Source: a virus. From it: a stretch of DNA of 26,490 nucleotides. Made by a program: the position numbers and the translations under genes. The stretch is from positions 1 to 26,490 of IMG/VR virus record IMGVR_UViG_3300013102_000066; one strand, written 5' to 3'. A model generated the notes under the pieces. That model made no database searches. It worked only from the letters and a program-made list of their open reading frames with translations, and had not been told where the DNA came from. This document shows positions 1-7,242 of the stretch, piece after piece (position 1 is the first letter of the stretch; the number at the start of each line of letters is the position of its first letter).

Positions 1-32
1 CGGTTTACCTTCTGACCAGCACCCTTCGCCAT
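1..32 (-). CDS. Start of an unidentified gene leaving the left edge (partial)
   Basis: An ATG at 32-30 opens a frame reading MAKGAGQKVN and continuing off the window. An AGG-containing ribosome-binding sequence lies about six bases upstream. It is the next leftward gene after Rz1, separated by about 80 bases that hold a 7-bp inverted repeat (60-82). In related phages the gene after the lysis cassette is often the small terminase subunit, but ten residues cannot establish that. Confidence 0.4.
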   Translation of the reverse strand, partial: MAKGAGQKVN

Positions 33-112: not shown

Positions 113-523
113 TCAGGGACCCCGCAGGCCCACCCCCATCGGGGAGGACCCATGTTTATGCACAGACTTATCCACAGACTTATGCACAGACTCGGACGGG
201 GGGAATATCGGCCAGCACGCGGCGGGCTGCACGGGTGCCGCCCCGTTGATCGTGATGCCCGTCGCCCCTGTCACTGTGCAGATCAGCGCCGTGTAATCCG
301 TGACCACGTCGTGGAACGCATGCGCCACGTCGACATGGTTCGCCAGCAGGTCGCCACGCCGCCCGCTCAGTGGTTGCGGCAGATCGTCAGCGGGCACCGC
401 CAGCTGCCCCGCCGGAATGCTCAGGTTCGGAGTGGGCGGGTCGGCCGGCGTTTGCTTCACGCCATGCGCGCAAGCCGTCGCCATCAAGGTCGCAGCCGCC
501 AGGATCAGGATTCGCTTGAACAT
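113..523 (-). CDS. Rz1-like outer-membrane spanin lipoprotein, C-terminally extended
   Basis: Small lipoprotein with a signal peptide ending in a lipobox (ATA then Cys18), so it should be lipidated and sorted to the outer membrane. It begins inside the Rz gene in another frame, the classic nested Rz/Rz1 arrangement. With Rz it would form the spanin that fuses inner and outer membranes at the end of lysis. The part after the lipobox is proline-rich, as in other Rz1 proteins. At 136 residues it is much longer than typical Rz1 (about 60). The extra C-terminus contains the peptide repeat HKSVDKSVHK, encoded by a 12-bp DNA repeat that matches DnaA boxes. Identification rests on position, lipobox and nesting rather than clear sequence similarity. 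Confidence 0.75.
   Translation of the reverse strand: MFKRILILAAATLMATACAHGVKQTPADPPTPNLSIPAGQLAVPADDLPQPLSGRRGDLLANHVDVAHAFHDVVTDYTALICTVTGATGITINGAAPVQPAACWPIFPPSESVHKSVDKSVHKHGSSPMGVGLRGP
156..191. repeat. Three tandem 12-bp repeats, each a DnaA box
   Basis: TTATGCACAGAC (156-167), TTATCCACAGAC (168-179) and TTATGCACAGAC (180-191) are head-to-tail 12-bp repeats. The first nine bases of each match the bacterial DnaA box consensus TTATNCACA exactly, and the middle copy is the strong box TTATCCACA. They lie in the C-terminal coding part of the Rz1-like gene. The match is seen directly. DnaA binding, replication initiation or DnaA titration is inference. Confidence 0.7.
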
Positions 524-794
524 ATCGGTACACCGTCCTTTCGATGGTTTTGAAATTCACTTCACTTGCCGCTTTCTTGTCGACGCGTTTCGCCTCGCCC
601 TTTGCCGCTCCCTGCTCATTCGCGTGATCGTTCACACGCGCCTCAACAGCCTGGTCGGCTCGCGCCGTTTCCTGCGCCGTTGCAGTCACCGCGACCGCCG
701 CATCCGCGCGCCCGTCCCTCACCTGATACCCGACCGCGAACGCCACGACCGACCACACAACGAACGCGATCGCAAACACCGGCAAGCTCTTCAC
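387..794 (-). CDS. Rz-like inner-membrane spanin subunit
   Basis: A 135-residue protein with one N-terminal membrane segment (about residues 5-23) followed by an Ala/Glu/Lys-rich periplasmic helix likely to form a coiled coil. This is the topology of i-spanins (Rz). The gene starts with a 4-base overlap on the endolysin stop, and the Rz1-like lipoprotein gene starts inside it in a different frame. Rz and Rz1 would span the periplasm and disrupt the outer membrane after the wall is cut. The call is based on topology and gene order. Confidence 0.8.
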   Translation of the reverse strand: MKSLPVFAIAFVVWSVVAFAVGYQVRDGRADAAVAVTATAQETARADQAVEARVNDHANEQGAAKGEAKRVDKKAASEVNFKTIERTVYRYVQANPDPGGCDLDGDGLRAWREANAGRPAHSEPEHSGGAAGGAR

Positions 795-1273
795 GCTGCA
801 CCCCCGAAACGGACATACGCGACCCGAAGGTCGCTGAACTCCTGCTCATGCTGGCCGTAGCCAGCCCCCGGCAAGCTCGCCCAAATCTTCCGGGCTGCCT
901 GCATTGCCTCTTCGAACTTCCCGGCCTGCAGCAGCGCAAGGGCGCCGCATTGCTTCAGCAGCTCGACACATGCGCGATCCTGCGACGCAGGACTGAAGTC
1001 AGGCAGGCCCAGCCGTGCATCCAGGTCGTCCCATGTCGCGCGCAGGAACTGATACCTGCCCGCAGCGCTCGACCGGATGCCGTAGTGCGGCAGGTTCACC
1101 AGCTTGCGGGGATGGTCGGCGTAGCTGTCCAGCAGCCCGCCGCCGACGATCACGTCATAGCCGTCGTCATGCGTCTTCTGTCGGCCGTCGTCAGTGCCCT
1201 CGGACACCGCGAGCATGTCCATGAATGCGGCGACGTTCACGCCGCCAACTTCGTCAGGCGCGAGTCGCGGCAT
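791..1273 (-). CDS. Endolysin, lambda R-like lytic transglycosylase
   Basis: Murein-cutting enzyme related to phage lambda R. Segments FMDMLAVSEGTDDGRQKT, GYDVIVGGGL, DHPRKLVNLP, SAAGRYQFL and IWASLPGAGYGQ closely match the lambda family. Glu25, in SEGTD, corresponds to the catalytic Glu19 of lambda R. Length (160 residues) matches the family (158). No signal peptide is seen, so it should depend on a holin for release. The gene overlaps the 3' end of the holin-like gene by 20 bases and ends in an ATGA overlap with Rz. Confidence 0.95.
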   Translation of the reverse strand: MPRLAPDEVGGVNVAAFMDMLAVSEGTDDGRQKTHDDGYDVIVGGGLLDSYADHPRKLVNLPHYGIRSSAAGRYQFLRATWDDLDARLGLPDFSPASQDRACVELLKQCGALALLQAGKFEEAMQAARKIWASLPGAGYGQHEQEFSDLRVAYVRFGGAA

Positions 1274-1598
1274 GCTCGCCCCCAGTAATACCCCTCACCA
1301 GCTCCGTCAGCTGGTCGACCTGGCTCGACAACACCTCAACCTTTCCGCTCAGCTCGCCGATCTGTTTCACCATCGACTCGCGCTCGACCATCAGTCGGTC
1401 TGCGCGATCACGCTCAGTCACGACCTGCGCCTGAAGCCGGATGATCGTCTGCGCATTCGCGTCGTTCGCGGTGCGGTCAACGTTCGACTGTGACAACCAT
1501 TGCCGAAGAAACAGCAAGGACGCGCCACCACCACCGACGGCGGTAACGATGTACTTCGCCCAGGTCGGGACGTGATCAAGCAAATCAGGTTCATTCAT
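1254..1598 (-). CDS. One-TM, coiled-coil membrane protein, probable holin
   Basis: A 114-residue protein with one hydrophobic segment near the N-terminus (about residues 14-32), then a long polar helix rich in Arg, Glu, Gln and Leu heptads (about residues 45-105) likely to form a coiled coil. Directly before the endolysin gene is the usual holin position, and the ATGA overlap with the upstream Mor-like gene ties it to the late operon. The single TM and long coiled coil are not the classic two- or three-TM holin architecture. It could be a pinholin-like protein or a lysis accessory protein. Confidence 0.55.
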   Translation of the reverse strand: MNEPDLLDHVPTWAKYIVTAVGGGGASLLFLRQWLSQSNVDRTANDANAQTIIRLQAQVVTERDRADRLMVERESMVKQIGELSGKVEVLSSQVDQLTELVRGITGGEHAATRA

Positions 1599-2146: not shown

Positions 2147-2206
2147 TCACGCCTTACATATCAACGACTTGAGTACGTGAGTACGGGTGAGTACCGGAAA
2201 TCCCAT
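2147..2206 (-). CDS. Possible 19-residue leader peptide
   Basis: A short frame (MGFPVLTRTHVLKSLICKA) begins at ATG 2206 with a strong GGGGAG ribosome-binding site five bases upstream. It begins 15 bases after a copy of the TCCCTSTYATCCTGM element, a spacing similar to that at 11959 and 15802. Three of the GAGTAC iterons lie inside it. It may be a leader peptide of the Mor/lysis operon or simply a chance frame within the control region. Confidence 0.25.
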   Translation of the reverse strand: MGFPVLTRTHVLKSLICKA

Positions 2207-2380
2207 ATAGCTCCCCAACATCAGGATAAGAGGGACATCTATTGTCCCCAATATCCAGCATCGGCAGAAGTTTGGACTACTTACCCATCCTCTCCATACT
2301 CATATTCTATAAGTAATTGATAATAATACAGAAAAACGAGTACGGCATAGAGTATGGCCCTAGAGTACGGGGTGAGTATG
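2171..2380. repeat. GAGTAYG iteron cluster around an AT-rich core
   Basis: GAGTAC or GAGTAT followed by G (one copy C) occurs at 2171, 2179, 2189, 2338, 2350, 2363 and 2374, with an inverted copy at 2295-2301. Three are packed left and four right of an unusually AT-rich stretch (about 2295-2336) in otherwise GC-rich DNA. Iterons flanking an AT-rich unwinding region are typical of plasmid and phage replication origins or of partition and activator binding sites. No gene in this window is proven to bind them. The Mor-like and ParB-like proteins are candidates. Confidence 0.6.
2221..2235 (-). promoter_or_regulatory. TCCCTSTYATCCTGM element, copy 1
   Basis: On the minus strand this reads TCCCTCTTATCCTGA, 13 of 15 identical to the copy at 15774-15788. 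It points toward the Mor/lysis operon. A TTGGGG hexamer lies 17 bases upstream of the inner TATCCT, so it may itself contain a -10 hexamer. Confidence 0.5.
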
Positions 2381-6411: not shown

Positions 6412-6647
6412 CCCCGCACGCTCCCAACAAAATTAGTGATCTGCCGCTTCACCGCAGCAGGAAGACGCACGCCGGATAGCGTCACCAGGCCATCAACAAG
6501 CCCGACGATCTGCGCCGCTTCAGCCAGCTTTCCGCGCGCGTCCCGCCGTTCCTCGCGCAGCATCCACGCGCTGCACGCCATGCCGATCGTGAACGCGACC
6601 AACACCATGATCCAGAAAAACACCAGGTCTACCGATGTCGTTTGCAT
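6408..6647 (-). CDS. Small single-pass membrane protein
   Basis: A 79-residue protein with one strongly hydrophobic segment (residues 8-30, FFWIMVLVAFTIGMACSAWML) followed by a charged helix (REERRDARGKLAEAAQ) and a basic tail. The Arg-rich flank suggests N-out/C-in topology. ATG 6647 is preceded by GGAG at a suitable distance, and the membrane segment starts near it. The longer frame to 6794 is rejected because it overlaps the next gene. Function unknown. Confidence 0.6.
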   Translation of the reverse strand: MQTTSVDLVFFWIMVLVAFTIGMACSAWMLREERRDARGKLAEAAQIVGLVDGLVTLSGVRLPAAVKRQITNFVGSVRG

Positions 6648-6661
6648 GCTCTTTGCTCCGG

Positions 6662-6928
6662 TTACGCGGAAGACAGCCGCTTCAGTACGTTGTCGGTTTC
6701 GATGCGCACGGCCTCGGCTCGCGCGGCATCGGCAATCTTGGTTTCGGCCTCGCGCAGGATGCCCGCGACGATCACGTCGAACGGACGTCCACATGCGGGC
6801 CGCAACGCGTCGGCATAGGCCGGCAGGGCGACCAGTCGCGCCGAGACAATGGCCGCTTCCACGCGCTCGATTGCGCGCTCGCGTATGCCTTCCTCGATCC
6901 GGTCGGAAAGTGGTTTCAGCGGACTCAT
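6662..6928 (-). CDS. Hypothetical helical protein
   Basis: An 88-residue alanine- and arginine-rich, almost entirely helical protein (SDRIEEGIRERAIERVEAA then a central PAYADALRPACGRPFDVIVA). The ATG at 6928 overlaps the stop of the zinc-finger gene (ATGA), which fixes the start. A much longer frame to 7288 exists but would lie over the zinc-finger gene. Function unknown. Confidence 0.6.
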   Translation of the reverse strand: MSPLKPLSDRIEEGIRERAIERVEAAIVSARLVALPAYADALRPACGRPFDVIVAGILREAETKIADAARAEAVRIETDNVLKRLSSA

Positions 6929-7242
6929 GCGTATTGCCTCGTTTCGTAGCGCTCGCGCATCATGTCGGGCGACAGTGCCGGGTTGTGCGCGCAGTACCCC
7001 CGGCCACGCCAGTGGGGGAAGCTGTAATTTCCGCAGCGGCATGTGTGCCCGCGCTGTTCGCGGCCGTCGGTGCGGTAGATGTCGACGCGATACACGCCCT
7101 TGCCGCAGCTGCGGCATTTCGGCGGGCGCAGGTAGTCGTCCGGATGGCGCGGCAAACGCCGACGCGACTGGCACTCGGCGCGATTGCAGCGGCACGCGTA
7201 GGAGTGCCGGCGCTGCACGAAGGCGCGGAACAGGACACTCAC
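6925..7242 (-). CDS. Cysteine-rich zinc-binding protein
   Basis: A 105-residue basic protein with cysteine pairs in two clusters: YACRCNRAEC near the N-terminus, then CRSCGKG, HTCRCGNYSF and YCAHNP. This suggests one or two zinc-binding folds and nucleic-acid binding. The GTG start at 7242 overlaps the stop of the 38-residue membrane protein (GTGA), matching the coupling seen across this operon. An ATG at 7275 would overlap far more. Family not recognised. Confidence 0.65.
   Translation of the reverse strand: MSVLFRAFVQRRHSYACRCNRAECQSRRRLPRHPDDYLRPPKCRSCGKGVYRVDIYRTDGREQRGHTCRCGNYSFPHWRGRGYCAHNPALSPDMMRERYETRQYA

Follow-up and report, generated by a model that had tools for sequence, protein, structure and literature searches.

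The window, by which we mean the whole 26,490-bp stretch of viral DNA that was analysed, carries a lysis cassette on the minus strand near its left edge. The cassette comprises a small protein that is a possible holin (1254..1598; PHROG 'hol-like chemotaxis'), an endolysin (791..1273), an Rz-like inner spanin (387..794), and an Rz1-like outer spanin lipoprotein (113..523). The Rz1-like protein is a small lipoprotein with a lipobox-like ATAC near its start, and its gene overlaps Rz in another frame at 387-523. It matched phrog_20998, which carries no named function, and its homologue in Murka is annotated as a spanin. The start of the terminase small subunit gene (TerS) occupies 1..32 on the same strand and is truncated by the window edge. 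The complete gene was found at 6492-7016 of the L123 contig, which is 99.8% identical to the window over 6,521 bp and extends past its edge; there, Rz1 is followed by TerS and then by the terminase large subunit.

Within the Rz1-like gene, three DnaA boxes lie on the plus strand at 156..164, 168..176, and 180..188. The first and third boxes read TTATGCACA, and the second reads TTATCCACA. Perfect TTATNCACA sites number exactly three in the 26,490 bp, all on the plus strand, with starts at 156, 168, and 180 and hence a period of 12 bp. The expected count was 0.16, and three or more sites were reached in 0 of 100 dinucleotide shuffles, so that the array is a DnaA-box cluster beyond chance expectation. 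Additionally, Tandem Repeats Finder returned it as the highest-scoring tandem array of the window (156-192, period 12, score 67). The preliminary description, which had reported three boxes at exact 12-bp spacing and judged a chance origin very unlikely, was confirmed on both points, and no further perfect site occurs in the window. It was also right that the array encodes a peptide repeat, as the Rz1 frame reads ...SVHKSVDKSVHKH... across it. From the perfect consensus sites, and from variation in the window lineage that affects the position left free by the consensus, we infer that host DnaA would bind the array.

Judged by motif and gene order, a lambda-type cos site borders the array on its left; it had escaped the first reading of this DNA. 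On the minus strand, the box at 156-164 is followed, after a 4-bp gap (152-155), by the cosQ motif GGGTCCT (151-145), by a cosN-like core, CGGGGTCCCTGACACC (124-109), which is the predicted cohesive-end cut place, and by TerS from position 32 down, 119 bp after cosQ. The cosQ motif is part of GGGTCCTCCCC (141..151), and the corresponding right end of lambda reads GGGTCCTTTCC. As in lambda-type cos sites, a short, constant interval separates the 7-bp cosQ from the predicted cut, and the whole lies between the spanin/lysis genes and TerS. The GGGTCCT motif is also present in lambda, N15, phi80, and most relatives, and the phi80 record annotates cosQ. In relatives with a different Rz1, the interval between Rz1 and TerS is conserved as GGGTCCTYCC, about 17 nt, and CGGGGTCC..GACACC. 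The cut position in the window is given by homology only: in the record of Achromobacter phage Mano, PhageTerm predicts a cohesive end at the homologous place, and TerS begins at base 82; both ends of the Murka record repeat GTCGCATGACACCGC at the homologous cosN-like point; and the L126 contig ends at that point. We took GGGTCCT as cosQ on the basis of its sequence, its position, and the Mano PhageTerm end. With cosQ, the cosN-like core, and TerS next to it, the array is placed on the upstream side of cos. The 7-bp cosQ and its role in packaging termination have been described (PMC4669245; termination role also PMC9026076).

Residues 104-136 of Rz1 (113-214) are a run-through across the array and cosQ, and the TGA (115-113) falls inside the cosN-like core. 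The protein had been thought to be about twice the usual length; in fact, with 136 aa against the 109 positions of phrog_20998 (residues 3-103 matched), it is about one quarter longer. The Rz1 frames of the box-less L158 and L163 likewise run through cosQ, so the run-through is usual at this junction and no sign of the array. The best explanation, belonging to a reading that we favour as a whole at slightly less than an even chance, is that the peptide repeat is incidental and the Rz1 extension a by-product of a stop-less reading frame entering cos.

The proposal that the Rz1 frame was extended over a DNA-level DnaA-binding array is supported by relatives that keep the boxes and lack the extension (L157, L165, groups D and E, and L127/L233); no case was seen in which the peptide repeat was conserved while the box DNA was altered. 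In L157, whose TerS is 71% identical, Rz1 stops 16 bp before a row of five boxes, four of them perfect and one near-perfect. Rz1 also stops before the boxes in L165 and group D (L187-L190, L193, L194, and L222), as well as in group E (L192 and L195-L211) wherever an Rz1 homologue was found. In L127/L233, Rz1 is lost, and two perfect boxes and one degenerate box stand beside the same cosQ. Between the window and L127, 22 of 27 box columns are kept vs 3 of 10 spacer columns, and the box substitutions occur at the position left free by the DnaA consensus. The group E alignment has 35 of 36 invariant columns in boxes vs 20 of 43 outside, and the group D alignment 18 of 18 vs 9 of 28.

For the wider comparison, a TerS-alignment search resulted in 80 viral loci, and 34 non-redundant junctions of 3-5.5 kb were analysed; the contigs in this comparison are metagenomic or prophage predictions. 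Of the 39 perfect boxes in these junctions, 36 are located no more than 100 nt upstream of cosQ, which corresponds to 36 boxes in the 3.4 kb directly upstream of cosQ vs 3 in the other 171 kb, or an enrichment of about 600-fold. The associated p value (2e-58) treats the boxes as independent and ignores relatedness; because the boxes are not independent, the number of lineages is the more cautious measure. On the TerS tree, the state changes at least twice, by parsimony three times, and the box-bearing junctions belong to at least two terminase lineages, or three by parsimony. In 25 of the 26 box-bearing loci, a distance of 2-7 nt separates cosQ from the nearest box, whose TTAT end is turned towards cosQ. 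The sole exception is L215, where the nearest perfect box is 56 nt from cosQ and reversed. Box layouts beside cosQ vary among direct 12-bp repeats, paired 11-bp repeats, and inverted pairs.

The boxes are far from universal. Thirty of the 45 rows of the TerS tree are without boxes, from which it follows that DnaA is no general need of these phages, and no DnaA boxes were found at cosQ in lambda, N15, phi80, or Persinger. The exact pair TGTGGATAA-N2..7-GGGTCCTTCC occurs in just 25 stretches among all viral contigs, nearly all of them from the groups described here. It was found in 0 of 398 Pseudomonadota genomes; as a reversed control pattern was equally absent (0), this null result shows rarity only. 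A scan of genome contigs with the cos pattern gave six matches, none with boxes; when 398 genomes of one order were searched for TerS, only three matches (29-50% identity) were obtained.

Host-factor sites near phage genome ends and clusters of DnaA boxes have precedents. The gene order Rz/Rz1, cos, TerS, TerL is common to lambda and the window phage, and both have the same 7-bp cosQ and, in the cos region, a site for a host DNA-binding protein, which in the window phage is putative. The host factor known at lambda cos is IHF, on the cosB side. The lambda IHF site I1 lies in cosB, between TerS sites, whereas the boxes of the window are of the DnaA type and lie on the opposite side, upstream of cosQ. 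The role proposed here for DnaA is comparable to that of IHF at cosB in kind, but not in place. The datA/DARS loci and oriC are clusters of consensus DnaA boxes; in contrast to them, the window array has no melting region and is bound to cosQ by distance and direction. Tandem TTATCCACA arrays of other phages and viral contigs have the same 9-mers, often with an 11-12 bp period; among the tandem-array loci compared, cosQ within 40 nt was found only in the window's own phage. Triple TTATNCACA sites at a 12-bp period were recorded in at least 120 viral stretches (L003-L122), with spacers that are mostly GAG, GGG, or GAC and with no nearby cosQ. In alphaproteobacterial phages, sites for the host regulator CtrA cluster in terminal repeats or gap regions (PMC9437464). 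The window offers a parallel in that putative sites of a host cell-cycle regulator are concentrated beside cos, although the regulator and the host class are different and the control is over lytic genes instead of cos. The same study saw no positional clustering for DnaA (PMC9437464).

The reading that we prefer, at a little below even chance, is that the array is a host-DnaA site that belongs to cos and not to the spanin, and that it probably acts at packaging termination. Within this joint statement, the presence of DnaA at cos is the safer half, and the termination role is less sure. The packaging motor would come from the upstream side and meet the boxes just before cosQ, where it must stop and cut. 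DnaA directly upstream of cosQ could then be an accessory factor for terminal cutting, with the bound protein serving as a bumper, or as an architectural clamp by which terminase is slowed or oriented, and cutting could thereby be tied to the DnaA state of the host. Since cosQ and cosN end packaging and the motor would reach the boxes just before cosQ, an accessory factor of termination is the simplest reading. On the other hand, tandem DnaA boxes with no cosQ beside them occur commonly among phages, so that some unrelated function of DnaA could have become established at this site. No paper combining DnaA boxes with cos or cosB was found in the open-access literature that was searched.

Among the alternatives, a DnaA sink is unlikely but deserves consideration. 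Two to four strong boxes per phage copy would titrate DnaA after replication and restrain host initiation, in the manner of datA, and the clustering of high-affinity consensus boxes and the frequency of tandem boxes in other phages are consistent with this. A sink would function from anywhere, however, and predicts neither the fixed distance of 2-7 bp nor the single direction relative to cosQ; it also leaves unexplained why the rest of the junction loci is almost free of boxes. The titration of host DnaA suggested in the preliminary description thus keeps some plausibility as an activity of the boxes, but does not account for their geometry.

A replication origin, at which DnaA would open the DNA by cos and load the replisome, is improbable. 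Tandem DnaA boxes at 12 bp, which are intergenic in relatives, would fit an origin, but no A+T-rich melting region exists at the array, where GC ranges from 0.50 to 0.75 (40-nt windows, 141 to 260). The earlier suggestion of a replication start was not borne out, given that no A+T-rich unwinding element was found beside the boxes. A VapE-type primase-helicase is encoded by the window phage and several box-bearing relatives, yet also by box-less relatives; the boxes thus do not track the replication module. No DnaB-type helicase was detected above the cut-off in any box-bearing record. The most A+T-rich stretch of the window (2171..2380; 37% GC) contains seven of its eight GAGTAYG repeats and adjoins a Mor-like activator gene; it is a possible origin or operator and, by its composition, a better candidate than the array for an origin or control region of the phage itself.

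A transcription switch, with DnaA at cos controlling a terminase-gene promoter or stopping late transcripts, also seems quite doubtful. DnaA is a known transcription factor, and, along the direction of late transcription, the boxes precede the start of TerS by about 120-160 bp. Against this, a simple sigma-70 scan found no promoter-like site between the array and TerS, nor was a terminator-like site found there, and the gene order implies that late transcription would read through cos, as in lambda. We attach a similarly low probability to a phage protein, for example TerS, that would read the sites through a DnaA-box-like motif. The box-less L156, L160, and L161, which have GTTA repeats with 11-bp phasing in the same slot, are in its favour, but the TerS proteins of the box lineages are diverged (about 45-50% identity) while their boxes are the same, and box-less TerS proteins are closer. 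Moreover, the window-type boxes vary at the position that the DnaA consensus leaves free. That the Rz1 peptide repeat happens to spell the boxes, as its 12-bp unit of four codons, readable without a stop in the Rz1 frame, might suggest, was rejected as practically negligible, given the shuffles (0/100) and the boxes that persist where Rz1 stops or is absent.

Apart from the window, cos sequences were noted in several other elements. The L127/L141 element (IMGVR 3300014497_000199) is 9 kb long and has its own integrase, a cos with DnaA boxes, a Mor-like gene, a 33-residue TerS stub, and a tape-measure start; it is a satellite or a deleted prophage. Near-identical cosQ-cosN sequences without adjacent Rz1/TerS are present in Dyella monticola (L146), a Ca. 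Eremiobacteraeota MAG (L147), and Dyella acidisoli (L149); in the last, the opposite strand carries a large helicase-like ORF at a distance of about 2 kb from the cos sequence. By their arrangement, these three look like packaging-site-carrying satellites (PICI-like).

Clusters of DnaA boxes were also observed in other phages. Klebsiella phages vB_Kp_H01 and Kp7 and Proteus phage PmP19 (L259-L264) have four to five perfect same-direction boxes, which in the SP6-like vB_Kp_H01 and Kp7 are inside direct terminal repeats of 218-238 bp; vB_Kp_H01 has just four other perfect boxes in 45 kb. The terminal repeats of SP6 and T7 contain no DnaA boxes, and as that of SP6 has related CCTGTGG motifs, another motif reader is possible there.

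The position upstream of cosQ is occupied by other motifs in other lineages. In lambda (L270), N15 (L267), phi80 (L268), and Persinger (L269), cosQ directly adjoins a Fur-like dyad (TGATAATNATTATCA or a similar sequence). In lambda, the dyad is TGATAATCATTATCA (48452-48466), and the genome has no other perfect Fur-type dyad; N15 has CGATAACTATTATCG, with both arms changed in matching fashion, phi80 has TGATAATTATTATCA, and Persinger has ATGAGAAAAATTCTCAT. We take the cosQ-adjacent dyad of lambda, N15, and phi80 to be a putative Fur recognition site. In the box-less L156, L160, and L161, the GTTA-containing repeats end at -11 from cosQ. A speculative and rather unlikely generalization is that this is a 'host-state' slot, in which lineage-specific sites for host regulators would gate cutting or packaging. 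The window phage would read replication state through DnaA, and lambda, N15, and phi80 would read iron state through a dyad that fits Fur; Persinger would use a similar dyad, and other relatives phased CGTTAA-like repeats. No paper linking a Fur box to lambda cos was found in the open-access literature that was searched. If the lambda slot really binds Fur, the question could be taken up immediately in the best-studied phage.

To return to a DnaA site belonging to cos, the placement of boxes in distant relatives suggests that some phages may use host DnaA when cutting and packing their genomes. In the study of packaging, it has long been asked how a lambda-type terminase comes to halt at the correct position and for what reason cosQ is required. 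If our reading is true, a replication-initiator site fixed beside cosQ would couple the replication state of the host to packaging or to its timing, and would offer a simple handle on termination through box mutation or through the addition or removal of DnaA.
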